From assembly GCA_025454075.1 (NCBI GenBank), contig JALOPD010000138.1:1-8928 (forward strand): DNA of 8,928 nucleotides, read 5' to 3'. The DNA is from Desulfobacterales bacterium. Lineage in GTDB: Bacteria > Desulfobacterota > Desulfobacteria > Desulfobacterales > UBA2174_A. Positions 1 through 8,928 of this stretch are shown piece by piece. Within the stretch, counting starts at the first letter, position 1. Each line of letters begins with the position of its first letter. The translations under genes and the position numbers were made by a program. Under the pieces are notes generated by a model that saw only the letters and a program-made list of their open reading frames with translations, was not told the origin of the DNA and did not search any database.

Positions 1-1355
1 AACCCGCCGATCAGGAACCGGGACCGCTGAATGTCCTGGTCGTCGACGACGAAGCCAACATCCGCAAGACCCTGACCGTCTGCCTGGAAACCAAGGGGCA
101 CCGGGTCACCGCCGTCGGCAGCCTCAAAGGCGCCCAGGAAGAGGCGGCGCTGCAGGTCTTCGACGTGGCCTTTGTCGACCTGAGGCTCGGAACGGACAGC
201 GGGATGGACCTGATCTCCCTCCTGCTGGCCGCCTGCCCGTGGATCAAGATCGTGGTCATTACCGCCTATGCTTCCGTGGACACCGCCGTGGAAGCCATCC
301 GGCGCGGGGCCACCGACTATATTCCGAAACCGTTCAAACCCGACCAGGTCATGTTGGTGACCGAACGCATCGCGACCCTGCATGCCATGGAGCAGCGAAT
401 CTCCGGACTCCAGGAAGACCTGGATCGGGTTCACCCGGAGACTCTTTTTCAGTCCCATCATCCCGGAATGCAGCGCGCAATCGAGCTGGCCCGGCAGGTG
501 GCGCCTTCCGAAGCCGTCGTGATGCTGCGGGGGCCGAGCGGAACCGGCAAGACCGTCCTGGCGCGCGCCATCCACGGATGGAGCCGGCGGGCGCCCAAAC
601 CCCTGGGGATCATCTCCTGCCCGACGTTGAGCCCGGAGCTGCTTGAAAGCGAGCTGTTCGGGCATGTCCGGGGCGCCTTTACCGGCGCCCTGCGGGACAA
701 CCCCGGCCGGGTCGCGGCCTGCGAGGGCGGCACGCTCTTCCTCGATGAGATCGGCGACCTGCCGCTTTCGATCCAGTCCAAGCTGCTGCGCTTCATCCAG
801 GACCGCGAGTACGAGCGGGTGGGCGACCAGCGCACCCGCAAGGCGGATGTCCGTATCCTGACCGCCACCAATGCCGATCTCGAACAAGCGGTCAAAGACG
901 GCCGGTTCCGGGAGGATCTCTACTACCGGCTCAACGTGATTCAGATCCAGATCCCGCCCCTGCGCGACCGTCCGGACGATACGCAGCTTCTGGCCGCAGC
1001 CATGCTGGGGTTTTTCGGTGCCCAGAACCACAAGGCCTTTCGGGGGTTCTCGGACGATGCCCTGCGGGCGCTGCGGAACTACCCCTGGCCGGGAAACATC
1101 CGCGAACTGCGCAACGTCATCGAGCGCGCGGCCATTCTCTGCCCTGGAGACCTCATCGGCGTCGAAAACCTTCCGGAGTCCATCTCGCCTCACCACCCGC
1201 CCATCCAGCTGGGCGACCGCGTGCCGCTTGCCGTGATCGAAGAAAACCACATCCGCCGCGTACTGGCCGCGACCAAATCCCTTCAGGACGCCGCCGAGGT
1301 CCTGGGAATCGACCAGGCCACCCTTTGGCGAAAACGCAGGCAGTTCGGCATCTGA
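1..1355 (+). CDS. Sigma-54-dependent response regulator, AlgB/NtrC family (5' end cut by window)
   Basis: A cytoplasmic transcription activator that is phosphorylated by a histidine kinase and remodels sigma-54 RNA polymerase using ATP. The frame is open from base 3, giving 450 visible residues; the true start lies a few codons upstream. Numbering from base 3, the receiver domain spans about 10-125 with acidic pair D15/D16, phospho-acceptor D59 (FVDLRLG), T87 and K109. The AAA+ domain spans about 150-385: Walker A G177-T184 (GPSGTGKT), GAFTGA loop 224-229 for sigma-54 contact, Walker B LFLDE 245-249, FREDLYYRL 302-310 and WPGNIREL 362-369. A Fis-type helix-turn-helix follows at about 412-450. 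Remembered Pseudomonas AlgB (449 residues) has the same spacing, including D59, so AlgB-like is a confident family call. A GTG at 165 is in frame but would destroy the receiver. It converges on kdpC with 13 bases between stops. That it controls kdp is inferred. Confidence 0.95.
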   Translation, partial: PADQEPGPLNVLVVDDEANIRKTLTVCLETKGHRVTAVGSLKGAQEEAALQVFDVAFVDLRLGTDSGMDLISLLLAACPWIKIVVITAYASVDTAVEAIRRGATDYIPKPFKPDQVMLVTERIATLHAMEQRISGLQEDLDRVHPETLFQSHHPGMQRAIELARQVAPSEAVVMLRGPSGTGKTVLARAIHGWSRRAPKPLGIISCPTLSPELLESELFGHVRGAFTGALRDNPGRVAACEGGTLFLDEIGDLPLSIQSKLLRFIQDREYERVGDQRTRKADVRILTATNADLEQAVKDGRFREDLYYRLNVIQIQIPPLRDRPDDTQLLAAAMLGFFGAQNHKAFRGFSDDALRALRNYPWPGNIRELRNVIERAAILCPGDLIGVENLPESISPHHPPIQLGDRVPLAVIEENHIRRVLAATKSLQDAAEVLGIDQATLWRKRRQFGI

Positions 1356-1357
1356 GC

Positions 1358-1367
1358 CCGCCGGCGG
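1358..1367. repeat. GC-only palindrome between convergent genes
   Basis: CCGCCGGCGG is a perfect 10-bp palindrome filling most of the 13-base gap between the stop codons of the response regulator (+) and kdpC (-). It has no loop and no T-tract on either side, so it is a poor intrinsic terminator. It is recorded because it is the only structure between the two transcription units. Confidence 0.3.
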
Positions 1368-1368
1368 A

Positions 1369-1953
1369 TCACTTCTTCCGGTCCAGCGCCAGGTTGAGCT
1401 TCAGCGCATTGACCCGCGGTTCACCGAAAAGGCCGAGATCGCGGCCCTCGGTGTTCGCCGCGATGAGCGTATCGACGGCCCGGCGGTCCACTCCGCGATG
1501 GTGCGCGACCCGCGGCGCCTGCAGGTAAGCGTTCGCGGGGCTGATGTGCGGATCCAGGCCGCTGCCCGAGGCCGTCACCGCATCGGCGGGGACCGGCGCG
1601 TCGGGCGGAAGGCCGTTTTCGGCGCGATAGGCCTCGACCCGCTCCTTCACTGCATCGGCCAGCTTTTTGGAGAGCGGTCCCAGGTTGCTTCCGGAGGAGT
1701 TCCCGGCGTCATAGCCGGCCGCCCCTGCGGCCGAGGGGCGCGGATGAAAATAGCCGGGGCGGGTGAAGCTCTGAGCGATCCGCTCGGACCCCACAACGGT
1801 TCCGCCGCGCCGAATCAGCGACCCGTCCGCTTCGCCGGGAAAAAGGCCTTGGGCCAGCACCCACACCACCAGCGGATAGACGCCGCACAGGACGACTGCC
1901 AGAGTGAAGACGGCGACCACGGCCACGCGAAGCTCGGAGAGCATGTTTTTCAT
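1369..1953 (-). CDS. kdpC: KdpC, potassium-transporting ATPase subunit C
   Basis: The small accessory subunit of the KdpFABC potassium pump, anchored by one membrane segment and needed for complex assembly and function. The 194-residue product is close to the usual length of about 190. It begins MKNMLSEL, followed by a membrane helix at about residues 9-35. Family signatures are visible: GGTVVGSERIAQSF, FHPRPSAAG, the NSSGSNLGPLSKKL stretch and GLDPHISPANAYLQ near the C-terminus. The ATG at 1953 is chosen because GGAAGGA lies 8 bases upstream. A GTG at 1983 is in frame but would overlap the kdpB end and has no comparable ribosome site. It is the last gene of the operon, 17 bases after kdpB. 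No T-rich terminator hairpin is seen before the convergent response regulator. Confidence 0.97.
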   Translation of the reverse strand: MKNMLSELRVAVVAVFTLAVVLCGVYPLVVWVLAQGLFPGEADGSLIRRGGTVVGSERIAQSFTRPGYFHPRPSAAGAAGYDAGNSSGSNLGPLSKKLADAVKERVEAYRAENGLPPDAPVPADAVTASGSGLDPHISPANAYLQAPRVAHHRGVDRRAVDTLIAANTEGRDLGLFGEPRVNALKLNLALDRKK

Positions 1954-1961
1954 TGCAACGA

Positions 1962-1968
1962 TCCTTCC
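1962..1968 (-). promoter_or_regulatory. Ribosome binding site deciding the kdpC start
   Basis: On the minus strand GGAAGGA lies 8 bases before the ATG at 1953. It sits just past the kdpB stop codon at 1971-1973. This favours ATG 1953 over the in-frame GTG at 1983. Confidence 0.75.
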
Positions 1969-1970
1969 GG

Positions 1971-3995
1971 CTAGACCCGGCACACTGCCGCGACGGCCAG
2001 GTCTATCAGTTTGATCCCGAGAAACGGCACCACCAGGCCCCCCAGGCCATAGATGAACAGGTTGCGGCGGAGCAGCGCAGCGGCGGTGAGCGGCCGAAAC
2101 CGCACCCCCCGCAACGCCAGCGGAATCAGCGCGACGATGACGAGCGCGTTGAAAATGACGGCGCTCAAAATGGCGCTTCGGGGGGAATGCAGCCCCATGA
2201 GGTTCAGCGGGCCGATGGCCGGAAACGTAGCCATCAGCATGGCCGGGATGATGGCGAAGTACTTGGCGACGTCGTTGGCCACACTGAAGGTCGTCAATGC
2301 CCCCCGCGTGATCAGCATCTGCTTGCCGATTTCAACGATCTCGATCAGCTTGGTGGGGTTGGAATCCAGATCCACCATGTTGCCCGCCTCCTTGGCGGCC
2401 TGGGTCCCGGTGTTCATGGCGACCCCCACATCGGCCTGGGCGAGGGCGGGCGCATCGTTGGTGCCGTCGCCGGTCATGGCGACCAGGTGCCCGGCGGCCT
2501 GTTCCCTGCGGATCAGGGCCAGCTTGTCCTCGGGCCGGGCCTCCGCCAGAAAGTCGTCCACCCCGGCTTCCGCCGCAATGGCGGCAGCGGTCAGGCGATT
2601 GTCGCCGGTGATCATGACGGTCTTGATTCCCATGGCCCGGAAGCGCTCGAACCGGTCCCGCAAACCGCCCTTGACGATGTCCTTGAGGTGCACCACGCCG
2701 ACGGCATGGCGGTTTTCGGCGACCACGAGCGCGGTCCCGCCCGAGCGCGAGATCCGTTCGACCTCCGCCTGCACCGCGGGCGGCAGCGTATCGCCGATGT
2801 ATCGAGCGATCGCGTCCGGGGCGCCCTTGCGGATGCTGCGGCCGCCGATGTCCAGTCCGCTCATTCGGGTCTCCGCTTTGAAGGGAACGAACACCGCCGT
2901 GGGCATCTCCGACATCGCCCGGCCCCGCAGCCCATAGCGCTTCGCCAGCACCACGATGCTCCGGCCTTCGGGGGTCTCGTCGGCGAGCGATGCCAGCTGG
3001 GCCGCGTCGGCCATCCGTTCCATGTTCACCCCTTGAGCCGGCCGGAATTCGGCCGCCTGGCGATCCCCTAAGGTGATGGTGCCGGTCTTGTCCAGCAGCA
3101 GCACGTCCACGTCTCCGGCAGCTTCAGCCGCCCGGCCGCTCACGGCCAGGACGTTCTTCTGCACCAGCCGGTCGATCCCGGCGATGCCGATGGCGCTCAG
3201 CAACCCTCCGATCGTGGTGGGGATCAGGCACACCAGCAGCGCCGTCAGGACGGTGACCGAAAAGTTCACATCCGAATAGCGGCCGAACAATTTCAAACTG
3301 ATCACCACCACGAGAAAGATAATGGTCAGCGCCGACAGCAGGATCGTCAGGGCGATCTCGTTGGGAGTCTTCCGGCGCTTGGCGCCTTCGACCAGGTGGA
3401 TCATGTGGTCGAGGAAGCTTTCGCCGGGGTTGGCGGTAACGCGGATCACCAGGTGATCGGACAGGACCTTGGTCCCGCCGGTCACCGAGTTCCGGTCCCC
3501 GCCGGCCTCCCGTATGACCGGCGCGGACTCGCCCGTGATGGTCGATTCATCCACCGAAGCGGCCCCCTCGATGACCTCGCCGTCTGCGGGTATGGTTTCG
3601 CCGGCGGAGACCACCGCGATGTCCCCCTTTTTCATCTCGTCCGCCGGGACATCCTGGAAGCCAGCTCCGCCCTGCACGCGGCGATGCGCCATGGTCCGGG
3701 TGCGGGTGTTGCGCAGCGCCCTGGCCTGGGCCTTGCCCCGCCCTTCGGCCACGGCTTCCGCAAAATTGGCGAACAGCACCGTGAACCAGAGCCACAGGGC
3801 GATCTGCAGGGTAAAGCCGACAGGTTCGCCGTCCGCCCGAAAGATCATCGCCAGGGTGGTGAGCACGGCGCCCGCCTCCGTAACGAACATGACGGGGTTC
3901 TTGAGCAGGCATACCGGGTGGAGTTTCTTGAAGGCATCCACCGCCGCCTGACTCAAGATGGCAGGATCGAAAATCGAATGGATTCTTGCGGCCAT
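1971..3995 (-). CDS. kdpB: KdpB, potassium-transporting P-type ATPase catalytic subunit
   Basis: The ATP-hydrolysing inner-membrane subunit of the Kdp pump, which energises high-affinity K+ import through KdpA. The 674-residue product is full length for the family (about 680). Actuator-domain TGES is at 154-157. The transmembrane CLIPTTIGG motif is at 256-264. The phosphorylated aspartate is D302 in DKTGTIT. Nucleotide-binding features are FKAETRMSG around 372-380 and KGAPDA at 390-395. The hinge motif TGDGTNDAP spans 508-516. The membrane pair D575/K578 lies in [12 protein letters not shown] and corresponds to the charged pair known in E. coli KdpB. The TGES serine whose phosphorylation inhibits E. 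coli KdpB is conserved here (S157). The ATG at 3995 has GAGGA about 9 bases upstream, overlapping the kdpA stop region; an ATG at 4000 is out of frame. kdpA ends 12 bases before it. Confidence 0.98.
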
Positions 3996-4007
3996 GACAT
4001 TGCTTCC

Positions 4008-5822
4008 TCAATAGCTGATTTCTGAGCCGGTCATCAAGAAATGCTCCACGACGGGCCCCAACGAAAGCGCCGGGAAAAAGGTCAAGGCGCCGACGATTAA
4101 AATCGTCCCGACCAGAAGTGCAGAGAAGAGCGGGCCGGAAACCGGAAACCGTCCGCCGCTCAAGGCCACGCGCTTCTTTTTGACCAGGTTGCCCGCCAGC
4201 GCCAGCGCCGGGACAATCATGACAAAACGTCCGAGCAGAATGGCGACACCGATGGTGGTGTTGTACCAGTAGCTGTTGCCGCTCAGACCGGCAAAGGCGC
4301 TGCCGTTGTTGCCGGTGCCGGAGGAATACGCGTACATCATCTCGCTGAACCCATGCGGCCCGGCGTTTAACAGCCCGGCCCGGCCCCATTCGCTTACCGC
4401 TGCCCAGGCCGTGAAGCCCAGGATGCTGAAGGTCGCTGCCATCAGGAACAGCACCCCGGCCTTCACGTCGTAGGCTTCGATCTTCTTGCCCAGGTACTCC
4501 GGAGTCTTGCCGACCATCAGGCCCGCCAGGAAAACCGCGAGCACGACGAAGACCAGCATGCCGTAAAGACCGGCCCCCGCCCCGCCGAAGATCACCTCTC
4601 CGAGTTGGATATTGGCCAACGGGACGAGACCACCCAGCGGCGTAAAGGAGTCGTGCATGGAGTTCACGGCCCCACACGAGGCATCGGTGGTGATGGTGGC
4701 GAAAAGGGCCGAGTTGAAAACCCCGAAGCGCACCTCCTTGCCTTCCATGTTGCCTTGCGAGCTGCCCACCCCCTGCGCGTGCATCCGCGGATTGCCGGCC
4801 GTCTCGGCGGACCAGCTCGCGAGAACGCCGGCCAGGAAGAGGACCGCCATGGCGCTCCATACGCTCCAGCCATGGCGCTGGTTCTTCACCATGCGGCCGA
4901 GGTAGTAGGTCAGACCGCTTGGGATCAGAAAAATGGAGAGCATCTGGATGAAGTTTGAAAGCGGCGTCGGGTTCTCGTATGGGTGCGATGCGTTGGCATT
5001 CGTGAATCCGCCGCCGTTCGTGCCGAGCATCTTGATCGCCACCTGCGAGGCCATCGGCCCCTGCGCGATGGTCTGGGTTTCGATTCTGTGTTCTGCCATC
5101 ACCGGGTTCCCCTGCGCGTCTTTGATGACATCGCCGTTGTCGTCCTTCTTCGCAGCTTCGACCGTGCAGGGGTCGAGGATCCACGCGGTTTCGTACGGTT
5201 TGAAGTTTTGAATCATGCCCTGGGACGCGAGGAACACGGCGTAAACGATGCAGATCGGCAGCAGAAGGTAGAGGTTCAGCCGAACGAGATCCACCCAGAA
5301 GTTGCCGATGGTCCGGGCGGAATGCCGGGCGATGCCGCGCACCAGCGCTGCGGCTGTGGCGATGCCGACGGCAGCGGAAACGAAATGATGAAACGCCAGC
5401 CCCACCACTTGGGAAAAATAGGACGCCGTGGATTCACCGCCGTAGTTCTGCCAATTGGTGTTGGTCATAAAGCTGACGGCCGTGTTAAACGCCAGATGAT
5501 CGCTGAACGGACCCAAACCCTGAGGGTTCAGCGGAAGCAGGTGCTGCAGCCGCAGGATCGCGTAGGTGAAGAGGGTGCCGGTCAGGCTGAAGGCCAGCAG
5601 GGAGATCGCATACTGCTTCCAATCCTGCTCCTTTCCCGGATCAACCCGGAGCAGGAAATAGAAGCATTTCTCCACCGGTCGCAGGACCGGATCCAGGAGC
5701 GTCTTTCCCTGCGCATCCAGAACCCTGAAAAGATAAACGCCCGTCGGACGGGTCAGCATCGTCAAAAACCCCATGAACAGTGAAAGCTGGAGCCACCCGA
5801 ATGCGTCGTTGAACGGTTGCAT
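4008..5822 (-). CDS. kdpA: KdpA, potassium-binding channel-like subunit
   Basis: The inner-membrane subunit that binds and selects K+ in the KdpFABC complex; it belongs to the superfamily of K+ transporters with four pore loops. The 604-residue protein is rich in membrane segments. All four filter regions are visible: TNTNWQNYGGE 120-130, GTNGGGFTNAN 267-277, TTDASCGAVNSMHD 378-391 and GTGNNGSAFAGL 502-513. The usual E. coli length is about 557. The extra length includes a polar, charged stretch at about 215-250, just before the second pore loop. The start is MQPFNDAF at 5822: this matches the family N-terminus, lies 2 bases after the kdpF stop, and has GGAAAGG in the kdpF tail as ribosome site. 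An in-frame codon at 5888 lies inside kdpF and is rejected. Coupled translation with kdpF is likely. Confidence 0.97.
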   Translation of the reverse strand: MQPFNDAFGWLQLSLFMGFLTMLTRPTGVYLFRVLDAQGKTLLDPVLRPVEKCFYFLLRVDPGKEQDWKQYAISLLAFSLTGTLFTYAILRLQHLLPLNPQGLGPFSDHLAFNTAVSFMTNTNWQNYGGESTASYFSQVVGLAFHHFVSAAVGIATAAALVRGIARHSARTIGNFWVDLVRLNLYLLLPICIVYAVFLASQGMIQNFKPYETAWILDPCTVEAAKKDDNGDVIKDAQGNPVMAEHRIETQTIAQGPMASQVAIKMLGTNGGGFTNANASHPYENPTPLSNFIQMLSIFLIPSGLTYYLGRMVKNQRHGWSVWSAMAVLFLAGVLASWSAETAGNPRMHAQGVGSSQGNMEGKEVRFGVFNSALFATITTDASCGAVNSMHDSFTPLGGLVPLANIQLGEVIFGGAGAGLYGMLVFVVLAVFLAGLMVGKTPEYLGKKIEAYDVKAGVLFLMAATFSILGFTAWAAVSEWGRAGLLNAGPHGFSEMMYAYSSGTGNNGSAFAGLSGNSYWYNTTIGVAILLGRFVMIVPALALAGNLVKKKRVALSGGRFPVSGPLFSALLVGTILIVGALTFFPALSLGPVVEHFLMTGSEISY

Positions 5823-5824
5823 CT

Positions 5825-5905
5825 TCAAAACCTTTCCGGCCGGATGACCGCAACAAACAAGTAACCGATGAGGATCACGCCGATGCACCCCCCGATGATG
5901 TCCAT
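5825..5905 (-). CDS. kdpF: KdpF, small stabilising subunit of the Kdp pump
   Basis: A 26-residue single-pass membrane peptide that stabilises the KdpABC complex in species where it has been studied. The reading begins MDIIGGCIGVILIGYLF and ends VAVIRPERF. The C-terminal IRPE(R/K)F ending after a hydrophobic helix is the typical KdpF signature. Its stop is 2 bases before the kdpA ATG, and its own ATG is 2 bases after the stop of the upstream small ORF. AGGATG about 6 bases upstream can serve as ribosome site. It is too short for routine gene callers and is easily missed. Confidence 0.93.
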   Translation of the reverse strand: MDIIGGCIGVILIGYLFVAVIRPERF

Positions 5906-5907
5906 GA

Positions 5908-5991
5908 TCACATCCTATCGAGCGCCGCTACGTACAGCGCGCAGAGAAGGAAAAATACGATCACCCCGATGATGTAGGCCGCGTCACCCAT
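5908..5991 (-). CDS. 27-residue predicted single-pass membrane peptide, first gene of the kdp operon
   Basis: A very small ORF, beginning MGDAAYIIGVIVFF and ending LCALYVAALDRM. Almost the whole chain is one hydrophobic helix (about residues 6-24), with a short charged C-terminal tail (DRM). Three things support translation: AGGAG 7 bases before the ATG, a stop only 2 bases before the kdpF ATG (the same spacing as kdpF-kdpA), and a position directly downstream of a strong sigma-54 promoter match. It is not KdpF, which follows with its own signature. I do not recognise a named family, though short hydrophobic ORFs ahead of kdpF may recur in other genomes. It may be an extra assembly or regulatory subunit of the pump; this is inference. 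A longer in-frame version back to 6120 would run through the promoter and is rejected. Confidence 0.75.
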   Translation of the reverse strand: MGDAAYIIGVIVFFLLCALYVAALDRM

Positions 5992-5998
5992 GGGTCGT

Positions 5999-6003
5999 CT
6001 CCT
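5999..6003 (-). promoter_or_regulatory. Ribosome binding site of the 27-residue membrane peptide
   Basis: On the minus strand AGGAG lies 7 bases upstream of the ATG at 5991. It fixes that ATG as the start and supports the ORF as real. Confidence 0.7.
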
Positions 6004-6036
6004 GTTGGCGGGTCCGGGTTTTCGGCCACCACCTCC

Positions 6037-6052
6037 AGCATGGAGCGTGCCA
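6037..6052 (-). promoter_or_regulatory. Sigma-54 (-24/-12) promoter of the kdp operon
   Basis: On the minus strand the sequence reads TGGCACGCTCCATGCT. The RpoN consensus is TGGCACG-N4-TTGC(A/T), so the -24 block is perfect and the -12 block differs at one base, with the invariant GG and GC exactly 12 bases apart. The predicted transcription start is about 6026, giving a 35-base leader before the ATG at 5991. It implies that kdp transcription needs an activator ATPase, consistent with the AlgB-like regulator nearby. The match is direct; use in the cell is inferred. Confidence 0.82.
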
Positions 6053-6127
6053 CCCGCGCTGCGGCGAGGCGCCCGATGAATGCCGTTGACCTGAAGTCTC
6101 CGGGAGCCGCCATGGGCCAAGGTGTTT

Positions 6128-6137
6128 CAAGGCCTTG
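6128..6137. repeat. Short perfect palindrome sharing the CCTTG half-site
   Basis: CAAGGCCTTG is a 10-bp perfect palindrome. It is followed by CA, so the right side contains CCTTGCA, identical to one arm of the palindrome at 6219-6235. Its centre is 94.5 bp from the centre of that site. It could be a further, weaker activator site or chance; the other arm of the full operator is missing. Confidence 0.35.
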
Positions 6138-6218
6138 CAGCCGGCTGTTTCCTCCGCGCCGGCCGCATCCCGTTTACGCCGGTTTATGTCTGCGCCAATA
6201 GGCCGGGTGGACCATCGA

Positions 6219-6235
6219 CCTTGCAGAATGCAAGG
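6219..6235. promoter_or_regulatory. Perfect 17-bp inverted repeat, candidate enhancer site 1
   Basis: CCTTGCA-GAA-TGCAAGG is an exact 7+3+7 inverted repeat in the middle of the divergent intergenic region. Its centre (6227) is about 200 bp upstream of the predicted kdp start and about 190 bp upstream of the predicted kinase start. Those distances suit an NtrC-type upstream activator site acting by DNA looping. Which protein binds is inferred; the AlgB-like regulator is the obvious candidate. Confidence 0.65.
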
Positions 6236-6250
6236 GCGACGGTGAGGCGG

Positions 6251-6267
6251 GGTTGTATTTTGCAAGC
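6251..6267. promoter_or_regulatory. Degenerate copy of the 17-bp inverted repeat, candidate enhancer site 2
   Basis: Read on the minus strand this is GCTTGCA-AAA-TACAACC, which agrees with the perfect site at 6219-6235 at 12 of 17 positions and keeps the same 7+3+7 layout. The two centres (6227 and 6259) are 32 bp apart, about three helical turns, so dimers on both would face the same side of the DNA. Tandem in-phase sites are typical for NtrC-family activators. Confidence 0.5.
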
Positions 6268-6389
6268 CGCGGCGACGCATCGGGCCGCAACGGCCGGGAC
6301 GGCGCATGGCCCGACAAACCGCACGCATGTCTTGCGCTGCCTGCGCCGCGGCATTCAACGCTAGCGGAGGGGGGCCGATTGGTATCCAG

Positions 6390-6406
6390 TGGCACAGCCC
6401 GTGCTT
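6390..6406 (+). promoter_or_regulatory. Sigma-54 (-24/-12) promoter of the kinase-kdpD operon
   Basis: TGGCACAGCCCGTGCTT matches the RpoN consensus: a perfect TGGCAC block, then GTGC, with the invariant GG (6391-6392) and GC (6403-6404) exactly 12 bases apart. The predicted transcription start is about 6416. The 20-base leader would still contain the AGGTGGAG ribosome site at 6421-6428 before the ATG at 6436. This close fit of start, ribosome site and ATG strengthens the call. Confidence 0.78.
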
Positions 6407-6435
6407 AGCGATGAGGACGTAGGTGGAGACGAATC

Positions 6436-8304
6436 ATGTTCAGCATCCGGCACAAACTCATGCTGGGCTTCGGCGGCCTGCTGGCGATCGTCGCGGTCAT
6501 CGGCATTATGACCATCGTGCAGATCCGGCGCCTGGGCGAGGCGATCGATGTCATTTTGCGCGAGAACTATCGCAGCGTCGTCGCCTGCCAGGAAATGAAG
6601 GAGTCGCTCGAACGCGTCGATCGCGGGGTGGTCTTCACGTTTCTGGGCGCCGATGCCGACGGGCGCCAGCAGGTCGAGGCCGGGATGAAGCAGTTCGCGC
6701 AGGCGCTGACGGTGGCGATGAGCAACATCACCCTGCCGGGGGAAGGCGACAGATCGCGCCGTCTCACCGAGGTCTTCCGCGACTATGCCGAGCTCGTCCC
6801 CCGGGTCATGGACCCGCTCCGCCCGCTCGAAGAACGGCGCCGGGACTACTTCGCCATGCTCCTGCCGCTGTTCGCGCAGATCAAGGCGCTCGCACAGGAG
6901 ATCCTTGAAATGAACCAGGCCAACATGAGCGAGGCCAACGACGCGGCCCGCTCGCTGGCCGCCTCCGCGCAAGGCCGCATGACAAGTGCCATCCTTGCCT
7001 GCGCGGTGGTGGCGGTGCTGTTCAGCCTCCTGATCCAGCGCTGGATCCTGGACCCCATCCGGCGGTTGATCGAATCGGCGAGCGACGTCCGCCGCGGCAA
7101 CCTCGATCTGGTCCTGGTGACCGACTCCAGGGACGAAATCGGGCAGTTGTCCGAGGCATTCAACTCCATGGCGGAGGGCTTGCGCACCATTCGCAGGAGC
7201 GACCGCCTGGATCTGATGCGCACGCGCCGGGCCACCGGCGAGGTATTCAAAGCACTGCCCTCGGCCATTGCGGTGCTGGACCTTGACGGGCATGTGGACG
7301 TCGCGACCGGCGAAGCCGAGCGGTTGTTCGGCTTCAAGCCCGGCGTCAACGTCGCAGACCTCGGCTACGACTGGCTGACGCCCTTGATCCGGCGAGCACT
7401 GGCAGAGGGTCGCGTGGTGGACGTCACAGCCAAGGAGGACTGCGTCCAGATTTTCGGCGACAACCGGGAATACTTCTTCGCGCCGACGGTGGTGCCCATT
7501 CAGTCTGAATCAAACCGCGAAGAGATTTCCGGCACGGCCGTTATCCTCAAGGACATGAGCCAAGTGCGCGAACAGCAGGAGCTGAAACGCAGCGCGGTCA
7601 CGACCGTGTCTCATCAGTTGCGCAATCCCCTGACCTCGATCCGCATGTCCATCCACTTGCTGCTTGAGGAGACGCTGGGTCCGCTGCAACCAAAACAGGT
7701 GGAACTGCTGATCGCCGGCCGGGAGGAATGTGAACGGCTGACCGGCATCGTGGAGGAACTGCTTGACCTGAACCGCATGGAAACCGGAAAGGCCTTGCTG
7801 GATATCGAACGCATTTCACCCCATCACCTGGCCCAGGATTCCTTGGAACCGTTTCAGGTGGAAGCCAGAGACAAAGGGGTCAGTCTTGCCAATGCCGTTC
7901 CGCAGGATGCGCCGGAAGTTCTCGGCGACGCGAAGCGGCTCCAGCATGTGCTGTCCAATCTTCTCTCGAACGCCCTGCGTTTCACCCCCCCCGGAGGGGC
8001 GGTGTCCGTCAGCGCCGAGGCCGAACCGGGGATGGTGCGTTTCGCCGTTACGGACACGGGAACGGGCATCGCAGCGAACGAGGCGGGCCGGGTATTTGAG
8101 CCCTTCTATCGCGTCCCGGGCCAGGGCCAGCCATCGGGTATCGGCTTAGGCCTGGCGATTGTCCAGGAAATCATCCGAACCCACGGTGGGAGCGTCGGGG
8201 TGGACTCAACCCCCGGAAGGGGATCGACCTTCTGGTTCAATCTGCCGCAAGCCGGCACCGCTCCAGCGATGGCCGGTGATCCGGCGCGGGAGTCACGGTC
8301 ATGA
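6436..8304 (+). CDS. KinB-like membrane sensor histidine kinase (HAMP-PAS-HisKA-HATPase)
   Basis: An inner-membrane kinase expected to sense an external or membrane signal and phosphorylate a response regulator. It has 622 residues. TM1 is at about 10-29 and TM2 at about 183-201, bracketing a mostly helical periplasmic domain of about 150 residues. A HAMP linker (about 200-252) and a PAS domain (about 265-375) follow. The phospho-acceptor is H393 in VSHQLRNPLTS. The HATPase domain (about 495-604) shows an N box with N508 and N512, DTGTGI 540-545, FEPFYR 554-559 and GIGLGL 568-573, so it should be active. The start at 6436 has AGGTGGAG upstream and a sigma-54 promoter ahead of it. The domain order resembles Pseudomonas KinB, the partner of AlgB, which fits the AlgB-like regulator at 1-1355. 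It is not KdpD itself: the ATP-binding KdpD sensor domain is the next gene. The ligand is unknown. Confidence 0.93.
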   Translation: MFSIRHKLMLGFGGLLAIVAVIGIMTIVQIRRLGEAIDVILRENYRSVVACQEMKESLERVDRGVVFTFLGADADGRQQVEAGMKQFAQALTVAMSNITLPGEGDRSRRLTEVFRDYAELVPRVMDPLRPLEERRRDYFAMLLPLFAQIKALAQEILEMNQANMSEANDAARSLAASAQGRMTSAILACAVVAVLFSLLIQRWILDPIRRLIESASDVRRGNLDLVLVTDSRDEIGQLSEAFNSMAEGLRTIRRSDRLDLMRTRRATGEVFKALPSAIAVLDLDGHVDVATGEAERLFGFKPGVNVADLGYDWLTPLIRRALAEGRVVDVTAKEDCVQIFGDNREYFFAPTVVPIQSESNREEISGTAVILKDMSQVREQQELKRSAVTTVSHQLRNPLTSIRMSIHLLLEETLGPLQPKQVELLIAGREECERLTGIVEELLDLNRMETGKALLDIERISPHHLAQDSLEPFQVEARDKGVSLANAVPQDAPEVLGDAKRLQHVLSNLLSNALRFTPPGGAVSVSAEAEPGMVRFAVTDTGTGIAANEAGRVFEPFYRVPGQGQPSGIGLGLAIVQEIIRTHGGSVGVDSTPGRGSTFWFNLPQAGTAPAMAGDPARESRS

Positions 8305-8928
8305 TCGAACACCGTGCCGATAGCTTCCTCCGTCTGGTTCGGAAAGCGCAGCGCGGTCGGCTCAAAATTTACCTAGGCTACTGCGCTGGGGTCGGGAAGA
8401 CCTACCAGATGCTCCTGGAAGCCCAGCGCTTCAGGGAAGACGGAATCGACATTGCGGTCGGACTGGTCGAAACCCATGGCCGGGAGGAAACCGAATGCCT
8501 CCTGCAGGGCCTGGAGGTGATCCCCAGGCGTCGCCTCGTGCACCGCGGCATCGAGATCCACGAGATGGACTTGGAAGCGATCATCGCACGGCGGCCCGGC
8601 TTGGTGCTGGTGGATGAACTCGCGCACACGAACGTCCCCGGCAGCCGCAATGCCAAACGTTACCAGGATGTCGAGGAAATCCTGGCGGCCGGCATCCATG
8701 TCATTTCGACCTTGAACATCCAGCATCTGGAAAGCCTGTACGACACCGTCGAGCAGGTCACCGGGGTCAAGGTGCGCGAGCGCGTACCGGACCGGGTGGT
8801 GGCCGAAGCCGACCAGATCGTCAACGTCGACATCACCACCGAAGACCTCCGGCGCCGCCTGGAGGAAGGCAAGGTCTACACGACCGAACGCATCGAGACG
8901 GCGCTCACTCACTTTTTCAGGGCGACCA
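8301..8928 (+). CDS. kdpD: KdpD N-terminal sensor domain protein (3' end beyond window)
   Basis: The visible 209 residues are the cytoplasmic N-terminal domain of KdpD, the K+/turgor sensor of Kdp systems. Walker A is GYCAGVGKT at 26-34 and Walker B VLVDELAHT at 102-110. Other signatures are LVETHGREET 55-64, VPGSR 112-116, STLNIQHLESL 136-146, the VRERVPDR motif near 158-165 and EEGKVY 188-193. The start at 8301 overlaps the kinase stop (ATGA), with GGGAG 8 bases upstream, so translation is coupled. The reading frame is open at the window end. It is therefore unknown whether this is a full KdpD with its own kinase or a short form (ATP-binding sensor with or without a universal-stress domain). 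A complete kinase lies just upstream in the same operon, so a short sensor working with that kinase is plausible; this is inference. Confidence 0.94.
   Translation, partial: MIEHRADSFLRLVRKAQRGRLKIYLGYCAGVGKTYQMLLEAQRFREDGIDIAVGLVETHGREETECLLQGLEVIPRRRLVHRGIEIHEMDLEAIIARRPGLVLVDELAHTNVPGSRNAKRYQDVEEILAAGIHVISTLNIQHLESLYDTVEQVTGVKVRERVPDRVVAEADQIVNVDITTEDLRRRLEEGKVYTTERIETALTHFFRAT

Follow-up and report, generated by a model that had tools for sequence, protein, structure and literature searches.

A kdpFABC locus of a Desulfobacterales bacterium with an AlgB-like sigma-54 activator, a separate histidine kinase and a KdpD-like protein

Introduction

We have analyzed a stretch of 8,928 nucleotides from a Desulfobacterales bacterium (GenBank assembly GCA_025454075.1, contig JALOPD010000138.1, positions 1 to 8,928 of the forward strand; hereafter, the window), in which the potassium-pump operon kdpFABC is flanked by the gene for a sigma-54 activator that resembles AlgB and by the gene for a separate membrane histidine kinase, with a gene for a KdpD-like protein next to the latter and cut at the window end. 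Our observations are consistent with a two-armed K+ control cluster, in which the kinase, the AlgB-type regulator and sigma-54 promoters would form a transcription arm, the KdpD-like protein would form an arm that acts on the pump, and docking of an EIIA domain would join the two. We assign this reading a probability of about 0.6.

From the gene content, domains, promoter-like sites and conserved layout and residues that we observed, we infer phosphotransfer, DNA binding, serine-kinase activity in this system, and EIIA docking with its direction. The membrane kinase would phosphorylate the AlgB-type regulator, which would bind TTGCA-N3-TGCAA dyads and open two sigma-54 promoters, one for kdpFABC and one for the operon of the kinase and KdpD-like genes (autoregulation). 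The KdpD-like protein would be an atypical serine kinase that phosphorylates KdpB at Ser157 and stops the pump at high K+. A C-terminal EIIA-Ntr domain, seen in orthologues, would report carbon and nitrogen status through the phosphoenolpyruvate phosphotransferase (PTS) relay and, as our best guess by analogy with the action of free PtsN on Escherichia coli KdpD, would dock on the separate kinase and so join both arms.

Results

Profile searches (Pfam and NCBIfam) of the open reading frames (ORFs) in the window bore out an original prediction, made from the nucleotide sequence alone, that a regulator gene and a kinase gene are split around kdpFABC, with a KdpD-type ATP-binding domain alongside (Table 1). 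The regulator ORF encodes a receiver domain, the Sigma54_activat domain, an AAA lid and a Fis-type helix-turn-helix (HTH_8), and its phospho-acceptor Asp is residue 59 in the numbering of the 5'-truncated ORF. By its GAFTGA loop, its AAA+ domain and the -24/-12 promoters described below, this protein has the marks of a sigma-54 activator. AlgB was the closest of eight regulators with which we compared it (49.5% identity over the full length, 439 bits; ZraR was next, at 42% and 316 bits), and AlgB fell inside a group of kdp-linked regulators, with support by the Shimodaira-Hasegawa-like approximate likelihood ratio test (SH-aLRT) of 96 in a quick tree and of 96/93 in a second tree. A topology with 24 kdp regulators as one clade without AlgB was rejected by the approximately unbiased (AU) test (p-AU 0.005), for which the group was picked after the quick tree had been inspected, with one AlgB sequence (from locus L249) and with AlgB relatives outside kdp loci hardly sampled. 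The clade that contains AlgB does not include the short-type kdp regulators of Bacteroidota. By an identity of about 50% and this nested phylogeny, the window regulator is placed in the AlgB subfamily of NtrC regulators, as had been predicted from domain spacing (Asp59, the GAFTGA motif and an ALGB-like C-terminal helix-turn-helix). When 274 genomes from the class to which G553 (a gammaproteobacterium) belongs were searched, one had a genuine AlgB/KinB pair with the KinB_sensor domain; three further genomes scanned had none.

The kinase contains HAMP, HisKA and HATPase_c domains and a 4HB_MCP_1 match barely above its cut-off (28.2 vs 27). KinB was the best of six kinases by BLAST (24%, 158 bits; ZraS was next, at 112) and the sole one to align over the full length. 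However, the KinB_sensor domain (PF16767), which Pfam detected in the KinB used as a yardstick, was absent from the window kinase by the same search, and in the kinase tree KinB lay on a long branch at a poorly supported fork and did not group with the kinases of the window and its relatives. As a description of overall layout, "KinB-like" holds; "AlgB-like" stands. The AlgB and KinB genes of L249 overlap by a few bases, whereas the window regulator and kinase genes do not.

A genome scan with the window kinase yielded 53 loci, of which 23 combine an AlgB-type regulator with a kinase match that reaches 38% identity or more. In keeping with the original expectation that similar neighborhoods may occur in other delta-type genomes, the case of Desulfovibrio vulgaris was published in 2011 (PMC3333781). 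The 2 genes are direct neighbors in 14 of the 23, lie about 2 kb apart in 7, and have the split arrangement of the window in L001 and L002, its two nearest relatives; in L005, a KimA-like permease gene (217 bits to KimA) fills the approximately 2 kb between them. Ten loci share the order regulator, kinase, kdpA, kdpB, kdpC, KdpD-like gene, all in one direction (L003, L008, L011, L012, L013, L016, L018, L022, L023 and L028, with the L022 kinase in two frames). These loci are of deltaproteobacterial, Chlorobi and Hydrogenedentota origin, the last of them a metagenome-assembled genome (MAG). A clade of ten rows around the window recurs in the regulator tree and in the kinase tree (support 100/98 and 100/100, respectively). 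On these grounds the pair is old; the 2 proteins look like a real pair, and their split around the pump looks like a rearrangement within the window's own lineage. The central claim of the original prediction, that an AlgB-/KinB-like pair rather than KdpD/KdpE is in charge, is partly supported: the gene content, the pairing and the lack of KdpE described next agree with it, and the resemblance to KinB is one of layout and BLAST score.

As predicted, we found no kdpE gene in the window, and in the genomes of 11 relatives (completeness unreported) no match to the KdpE model NF007820 exceeded the curated cut-off. OmpR-type regulators were present in 11/11 of these genomes, at best with 178 bits vs the cut-off of 325; because this cut-off is strict and E. 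coli-like, the count of 0/11 is weaker than a clean absence, and the neighborhood data weigh more. Neither kdpE nor a kinase gene upstream of the regulator, either of which would have spoken against the predicted pair, was found in the flanks of L001 and L002 (3.3 kb upstream of the regulator and 8 kb downstream of the KdpD-like gene). A response regulator encoded right after the KdpD-like gene of L001 was rejected as KdpE (receiver and TPR, no DNA-binding domain found), and in L022 an OmpR-type regulator and a kinase, encoded some 0.9 kb upstream of the module, were not called KdpD/KdpE. In the aggregate, we observed no OmpR-type KdpE partner in the window or, above the curated cut-off, in the 11 genomes and, in seven of seven orthologues scanned, no KdpD with dimerization and histidine phosphotransfer (DHp)/catalytic kinase domains.

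We searched for sigma-54 promoters with the consensus TGGCACRNNNNTTGCW, counting sites with no more than one mismatch, and observed exactly 2 in the 8,928 bases, one toward each of the divergent operons; first-order Markov simulations (n=100) gave a mean of 0.2 sites and a maximum of 2. These sites correspond to the two sigma-54 promoters of the original prediction and are near-consensus, located in the divergent intergenic region (444 bp, measured from the 27-aa micro-ORF of Table 1) and kept in L001 and L002. The window also holds a perfect copy of the dyad, of which about 0.02 copies would be expected, plus a one-mismatch copy. In L001 and L002, the same two promoters are accompanied by three dyads each (perfect: one in L001, two in L002), which are confined to the divergent intergenic region, with none elsewhere in 21.8 kb at one mismatch or fewer.

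Both patterns recurred in a set of 47 kinase upstream regions, the number left after removal of near-copies and of stretches shorter than 200 bases. With the window counted in, a dyad form that had been relaxed at one base after the relatives were inspected was present in 13/47 (shuffle mean 0.115, maximum 2), and the sigma-54 pattern was likewise present in 13/47 (shuffle mean 0.225, maximum 2). These counts are lower bounds because kinase starts were set roughly, at the first Met of the open frame; the promoter of L001 itself was missed that way. The distance from dyad to promoter was 97–100 bp in L003, L008, L012, L023, L161 and L246, and the nearest dyad lay 137 bp from the promoter in the window and 135 bp in L002. 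Measured against an even spread, which takes no account of base composition (the 47-region test uses shuffles), dyads upstream of module genes numbered 29 vs 10.1 expected, and dyads in 31 loci with full-length KdpD numbered 0 vs 1.3. A role of the dyad as a general enhancer was rejected, as the loci with short KdpD had 10 sites vs 6.5 expected, without clear enrichment. Because of its recurrence and its spacing to the promoter upstream of the kinase, the dyad is a likely binding site of the AlgB-type regulator.

The KdpD-like fragment encoded in the window matched the KdpD domain with 296 bits, and its best NCBIfam match was the "KdpD-like non-kinase potassium sensor" NF038185 (290 bits, cut-off 550), with full KdpD at 287. 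The full L001 orthologue and the short protein of L026 reached 373 and 358 bits, respectively, against NF038185, both below its cut-off; the L001 protein scored higher, at 384 bits, to the full KdpD model (cut-off 1123). In a Pfam scan of ten proteins, of which eight are KdpD-like, KdpD and PTS_EIIA_2 domains both exceeded their cut-offs in seven (L001, L002, L003, L011, L012, L022 and L025). None of these seven fused proteins had a HisKA/HATPase match, and Usp exceeded its cut-off only in L001 and L025, with sub-threshold matches in the other five; Pfam found no EIIA domain in L026, a short Chitinophagaceae form. Because its 209 residues are 94% identical to L001, the window gene probably continues with USP and EIIA-Ntr domains as in L001 and L002.

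Genomes picked for having the module each had one KdpD-sensor match over cut-off, and it was fused to EIIA in 11/11. The fusion is present in Desulfobacterota, Chlorobi and one Hydrogenedentota MAG; among the matches listed with the EIIA domain, 63/65 carry PF02702 and PF00359, and databases name the fused proteins "PTS sugar transporter subunit IIA" or "sensor histidine kinase KdpD". All 59 unique fused proteins keep the phospho-acceptor His, which the pattern PH[AGS] located in 54 and inspection by eye in five, and the solved structures that the EIIA domain matched by sequence were four PtsN/IIA-Ntr chains. A predicted model of the L001 protein had a mean predicted local distance difference test (pLDDT) score of 66.6 and a predicted template modeling (pTM) score of 0.34; the EIIA part scored 73–92 by tens, and relative domain placement is unreliable. 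Fold matches of this model included 1a6j (IIA-Ntr, template modeling (TM) score 0.84, among the best) and 7ji4 (c-di-AMP-bound Usp domain of KdpD, 0.84), and its superposition on 2r8r, a KdpD domain, was poor (0.52 by target length). By its PTS_EIIA_2 fold and its phospho-acceptor His, the domain in the orthologues is an EIIA-Ntr (PtsN) domain. Partners for a PTS relay are encoded in most of the 11 genomes (HPr in 11, EI in 10, a further EIIA protein in 10). A related EIIA domain is fused to a KefB-type K+ transporter in P0305, and EIIA fusions may recur in K+ transport.

PMC11018627 describes the KdpD domain of E. coli as an atypical serine kinase, with Ser162 of KdpB as its phosphorylation target at high K+; according to the same paper, short KdpDs retain this kinase, the one from Deinococcus geothermalis being stimulated by c-di-AMP and inhibiting the pump. 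The window fragment has the corresponding sequence marks, that is, Walker A (G-x5-GKT), Walker B (DE) and the adenine-contact pair, in residues G32, K33, T34, Y35, D105, E106 and R186 (E. coli G36, K37, T38, W39, D109, E110 and R190), with Tyr at the adenine-contact position where E. coli has W39. These residues, with an aromatic at the adenine contact, are kept in all 45 EIIA-class proteins that have kdp genes nearby, and the KdpB TGES motif is kept in 40 of 42 EIIA-class ORFs; Ser157 in TGES of the window KdpB is the counterpart of Ser162, the inhibitory site given in that paper. Because the serine-kinase residues and Ser157 are kept, a pump-inhibiting arm is likely for the window protein, and signaling from the KdpD sensor to the kinase, as originally suggested, becomes only one option.

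Thirteen fused proteins, some on short contigs, had no kdpA or kdpB in the stretch examined, and eight of these lie beside a KimA-like permease (L178, L180, L183, L185, L186, L188, L190 and L191, all of the Chlorobi phylum). A second, kdp-linked fused protein was present in five genomes with such a kdp-less set (G405, G452, G468, G504 and G528). Diadenylate cyclase was found in 7 of the 11 genomes.

A gene-neighborhood survey, proposed with the original prediction, was run with PF02702 on two phyla: that of G001, a Desulfobacterales MAG, with 56 of 297 genomes over cut-off, and that of G011, Chlorobium ferrooxidans, with 74 of 247. We classed 134 of the 144 matches and left out ten that were partial or weak (G196, G053:C105, G053:C356, G285 twice, G100:C64, G129, G101, G427:C20 and the second G507). 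Neighboring regulators were called NtrC-type if they had the sigma-54 domain by hidden Markov model and at least 190 bits to the window regulator, and KdpE-type if they had at least 95 bits to E. coli KdpE. Full-length KdpD with a kinase (n=31) had a KdpE-type regulator in 28 cases, an NtrC-type in 1 (L207) and neither in 2. Short kinase-less KdpD of 374–439 aa (n=45) had an NtrC-type in 39, a KdpE-type in 0 and neither in 6, and KdpD with a C-terminal EIIA domain (n=51) had an NtrC-type in 35, an OmpR-type in 1 (L218, a short contig) and neither in 15. The entry "neither" is often due to short contigs (L204 and L240 touch a contig end). In total, an NtrC-type regulator lies beside 74 of 96 kinase-less KdpDs and a KdpE-type beside 1, and the three proteins co-occur. 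In these two phyla, then, the KdpDs that lack a kinase are accompanied by a sigma-54 activator and the full-length ones by KdpE. This rests on the counts themselves; a Fisher p-value, which takes no account of kinship, was set aside.

There was also a form of 599–692 aa without EIIA or kinase match (n=7), with neither regulator seen in 6. Of its 660–692 aa members (L197, L201, L203, L205, L206 and L220), L197 has DUF4118 and GAF and no kinase domain, and it is the only one with a regulator seen within its stretch.

The pump and the regulators at the window locus have different histories, as judged from their trees. The window regulator belongs to a clade with L003, L126, L023, L012 and Chlorobi (32 rows, SH-aLRT 100; ten rows, 100/98) that excludes L120, L011, L214 and their kin; its nearest group (L003, L126, L023) had support of 81 in the quick tree and was unsupported in the second. 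In contrast, the window KdpB falls in a 12-row clade with L120, L011, L214 and others (support 100). A topology that groups the KdpBs of the window, L001 and L002 with those of L003, L023 and L126 was rejected (p-AU 9.6e-6, 484 log-likelihood units); one that puts them with the entire other pump clade, of 29 rows, was rejected as well (p-AU 1.2e-10, 123 units). These trees were built from all EIIA-class rows and every fourth other row, and the constraint groups were picked after the trees had been inspected. A swapped pump, inserted in opposite orientation between regulator and kinase, would explain both the tree conflict and the split layout.

The features of the window are collected in Table 1. 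The kinase stop codon overlaps the start of the KdpD-like gene. A kdpF-like peptide precedes kdpA in 39/42 EIIA-class loci, with the window counted in (loose C-terminal pattern). The micro-ORF upstream of kdpF possibly encodes a second small pump subunit; similar peptides before kdpA/kdpF were seen in 9/42 EIIA-class, 7/38 short-class and 2/28 full-length-class loci by a loose pattern, some clearly spurious. In L001, the segment 13566–17920 after the KdpD-EIIA gene encodes a receiver-TPR protein, a Kup-type transporter, a 4HB_MCP protein and a TrkA-like NAD-binding protein, and L002 has a similar set, which suggests a K+ island (Kup and TrkA were named by eye from the sequence).

Table 1. Features of the 8,928-nucleotide window
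Feature	Position	Strand	Remarks
NtrC-type response regulator, AlgB subfamily	3..1355	+	5' end cut, ~3 residues missing vs L001
kdpC	1369..1947	-	TIGR00681, 221.6 bits (cut-off 152.55)
kdpB	1971..3995	-	NCBIfam; TGES motif with Ser157
kdpA	4008..5822	-	Pfam, NCBIfam
kdpF, 26 aa	5825..5905	-	read from sequence
One-helix micro-ORF, 27 aa, upstream of kdpF	5908..5991	-	read from sequence; kept in L001
Putative sigma-54 promoter facing kdpFABC operon	6037..6052	-	1 mismatch
Enhancer-like dyad TTGCA-N3-TGCAA	6221..6233	.	perfect; relaxed form recurs upstream of kinase in relatives
Second dyad	6253..6265	.	1 mismatch; 32 bp from first; pair 32 bp apart in L002 too
Putative sigma-54 promoter facing kinase/KdpD-like operon	6390..6405	+	1 mismatch
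Separate membrane histidine kinase, 622 aa	6436..8304	+	4HB_MCP_1, HAMP, HisKA, HATPase_c; His393 in SHQLRNPL
KdpD-like protein, first 209 residues	8301..8927	+	KdpD/atypical serine kinase domain; gene continues past window

Discussion

The core of this arrangement is of an already known kind, since D. vulgaris (PMC3333781) and the split KdpD of Deinococcus (described in 2017, PMC5716572) have been published; the EIIA fusion, the dichotomy in two phyla, the placement of AlgB and the pump swap are additions that we did not meet in our literature searches. In D. vulgaris, as reported by Rajeev et al. 2011 (PMC3333781), DVU3334 regulates its own kdpFABC operon and the kinase appears to be split into DVU3335 and DVU3336; PMC4641369 lists DVU3334 among sigma-54-dependent regulators, as a GAFTGA two-component regulator of potassium uptake. 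Like the window, DVU3334–DVU3339 combine an NtrC-type regulator, a separate kinase (DVU3335) and kdpFABC, and DVU3336, like the KdpD-like protein here, is a separate protein with K+-sensor and UspA domains. The D. vulgaris genes form one operon, whereas those of the window are split and divergent, and the account of DVU3336 in that paper names no EIIA domain. The short KdpD or KdpD-N proteins of Deinococcus, Anabaena and Alicyclobacillus (PMC5716572; described as short KdpDs in 2024, PMC11018627) are kinase-less with a separate kinase and regulator, as here; PMC5716572 characterizes the D. radiodurans regulator by 23.9% identity to E. coli KdpE, and names neither sigma-54 nor EIIA in its account of it. 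With classical KdpD/KdpE, the window system shares the KdpD domain, USP (in orthologues) and control of kdpFABC; it differs in KdpD-like orthologues without the histidine-kinase part, in the lack of KdpE and in the use of sigma-54. Action of EIIA-Ntr on Kdp signaling also has precedent, as PtsN acts on KdpD in E. coli, PtsN1 of S. fredii binds the GAF domain of KdpD, and some alphaproteobacteria have a second ptsN inside the kdp cluster (as described in PMC13104625 and PMC9239096), although PtsN is a free protein in those cases, whereas the window's relatives carry it as a domain within the KdpD-like chain. In the open-licence PMC literature, judged mostly by listings, we recognized no paper that deals with a fusion of KdpD and EIIA or, D. 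vulgaris apart, with kdp regulators of the AlgB type; "fusion" is absent from PMC13104625, and "EIIA", "PtsN" and "sigma" are absent from PMC11018627, in the text of these sources available to us.

Several observations limit, or weigh against, the two-armed cluster. At three mismatches or fewer, sigma-54 sites in the window are at chance level (18 vs 20.5), so that the case for the promoters rests on site placement and conservation in L001 and L002, and not on the bare count; the dyad and promoter patterns were each seen in just 13 of the 47 upstream regions. The EIIA part lies beyond the window end and is read from orthologues alone. In the survey, L218 of the EIIA class has an OmpR-type regulator and the full-length KdpD of L207 has an NtrC-type. 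In eight Chlorobi loci, the KdpD-EIIA/kinase set has a KimA-like permease as its neighbor and kdp genes were absent from the stretch examined, so that pump inhibition cannot be the whole story. Of the 13 fused proteins without nearby kdp genes, six have Leu and two have Cys at the adenine contact. Diadenylate cyclase was not found in 4 of the 11 genomes, which are all four of the Chlorobi (G004, G005, G008 and G011); c-di-AMP input is therefore not general and cannot be assumed in those Chlorobi.

The conserved serine-kinase residues would also fit a KdpD-like protein that acts on the pump alone, with kinase and regulator sensing through the kinase's own domain and EIIA tuning the serine kinase in cis. 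This is the model that PMC11018627 gives for short KdpDs, and the kinase does have its own sensor domain; yet the KdpD-like gene is tightly linked to the kinase and regulator genes even without nearby kdp genes, and we consider a pump-only role unlikely, if a serious contender. If KdpD had been split into two chains, the KdpD-like protein would be a K+ sensor whose sole job is to drive the separate kinase, as DVU3335/DVU3336 have been read (PMC3333781), and this would suit the co-occurrence of the three proteins, the sets beside a KimA-like permease and the non-aromatic residue at the adenine contact in 8 of 13 kdp-less cases. Against it, the serine-kinase residues are kept in the window and in 45/45 kdp-linked EIIA-class proteins, and TGES is kept in 40/42 KdpBs; PMC11018627 reports a short KdpD that acts directly on the pump, and the five genomes with a second, kdp-linked fused protein have KdpB in the same cells as the kdp-less set. 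We regard a purely sensory role as rather improbable.

Two further explanations question the parts of the cluster. NCBI records that name the fused protein "PTS sugar transporter subunit IIA" would suit an EIIA domain that has no part in regulation, being either a leftover or a sugar-PTS IIA, which we think very improbable given the active-site His in 59/59, the PtsN/IIA-Ntr chains as best solved structures and a fusion that spans Desulfobacterota, Chlorobi and a Hydrogenedentota MAG. That kinase and regulator are not partners and merely flank the pump could be argued from the 5 kb and the pump operon between them in the window and from the 2 kb in 7/23 relatives; direct adjacency in 14/23 loci, matching trees and the lack of a kinase upstream of the regulator in the L001 and L002 stretches make this scarcely credible.

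The two-armed cluster can be extended to a wider proposal, which we offer tentatively and at odds short of even. Kinase-less KdpD might be a meeting point of K+ and PTS-Ntr signals (serine kinase, USP and EIIA-Ntr) that docks on the kinase driving the AlgB-type activator and sets both pump activity and transcription. It would replace KdpD/KdpE in Chlorobi, in part of Desulfobacterota and in at least one Hydrogenedentota MAG, and would be re-wirable, to kdpFABC of two lineages and to a KimA-like permease; pseudomonad AlgB would be an offshoot of this potassium-regulator family.

A 2024 survey (PMC11018627) concluded that kinase-less KdpD without KdpE seems to serve only post-translational control; in a handful of species it points to a separate two-component system, and elsewhere it leaves kdp transcription open. 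For two phyla our census offers an answer, a separate kinase and an NtrC-type sigma-54 activator beside kinase-less KdpD. The findings also correct the misleading names "PTS sugar transporter subunit IIA" and "sensor histidine kinase KdpD", and AlgB gains a possible ancestry among potassium regulators. In the four Chlorobi genomes without diadenylate cyclase, an input other than c-di-AMP would be needed. The EIIA-Ntr fusion would make the debated link between PtsN and KdpD accessible to study within a single chain, and through it the uptake of potassium may be coupled to the state of carbon and nitrogen supply.

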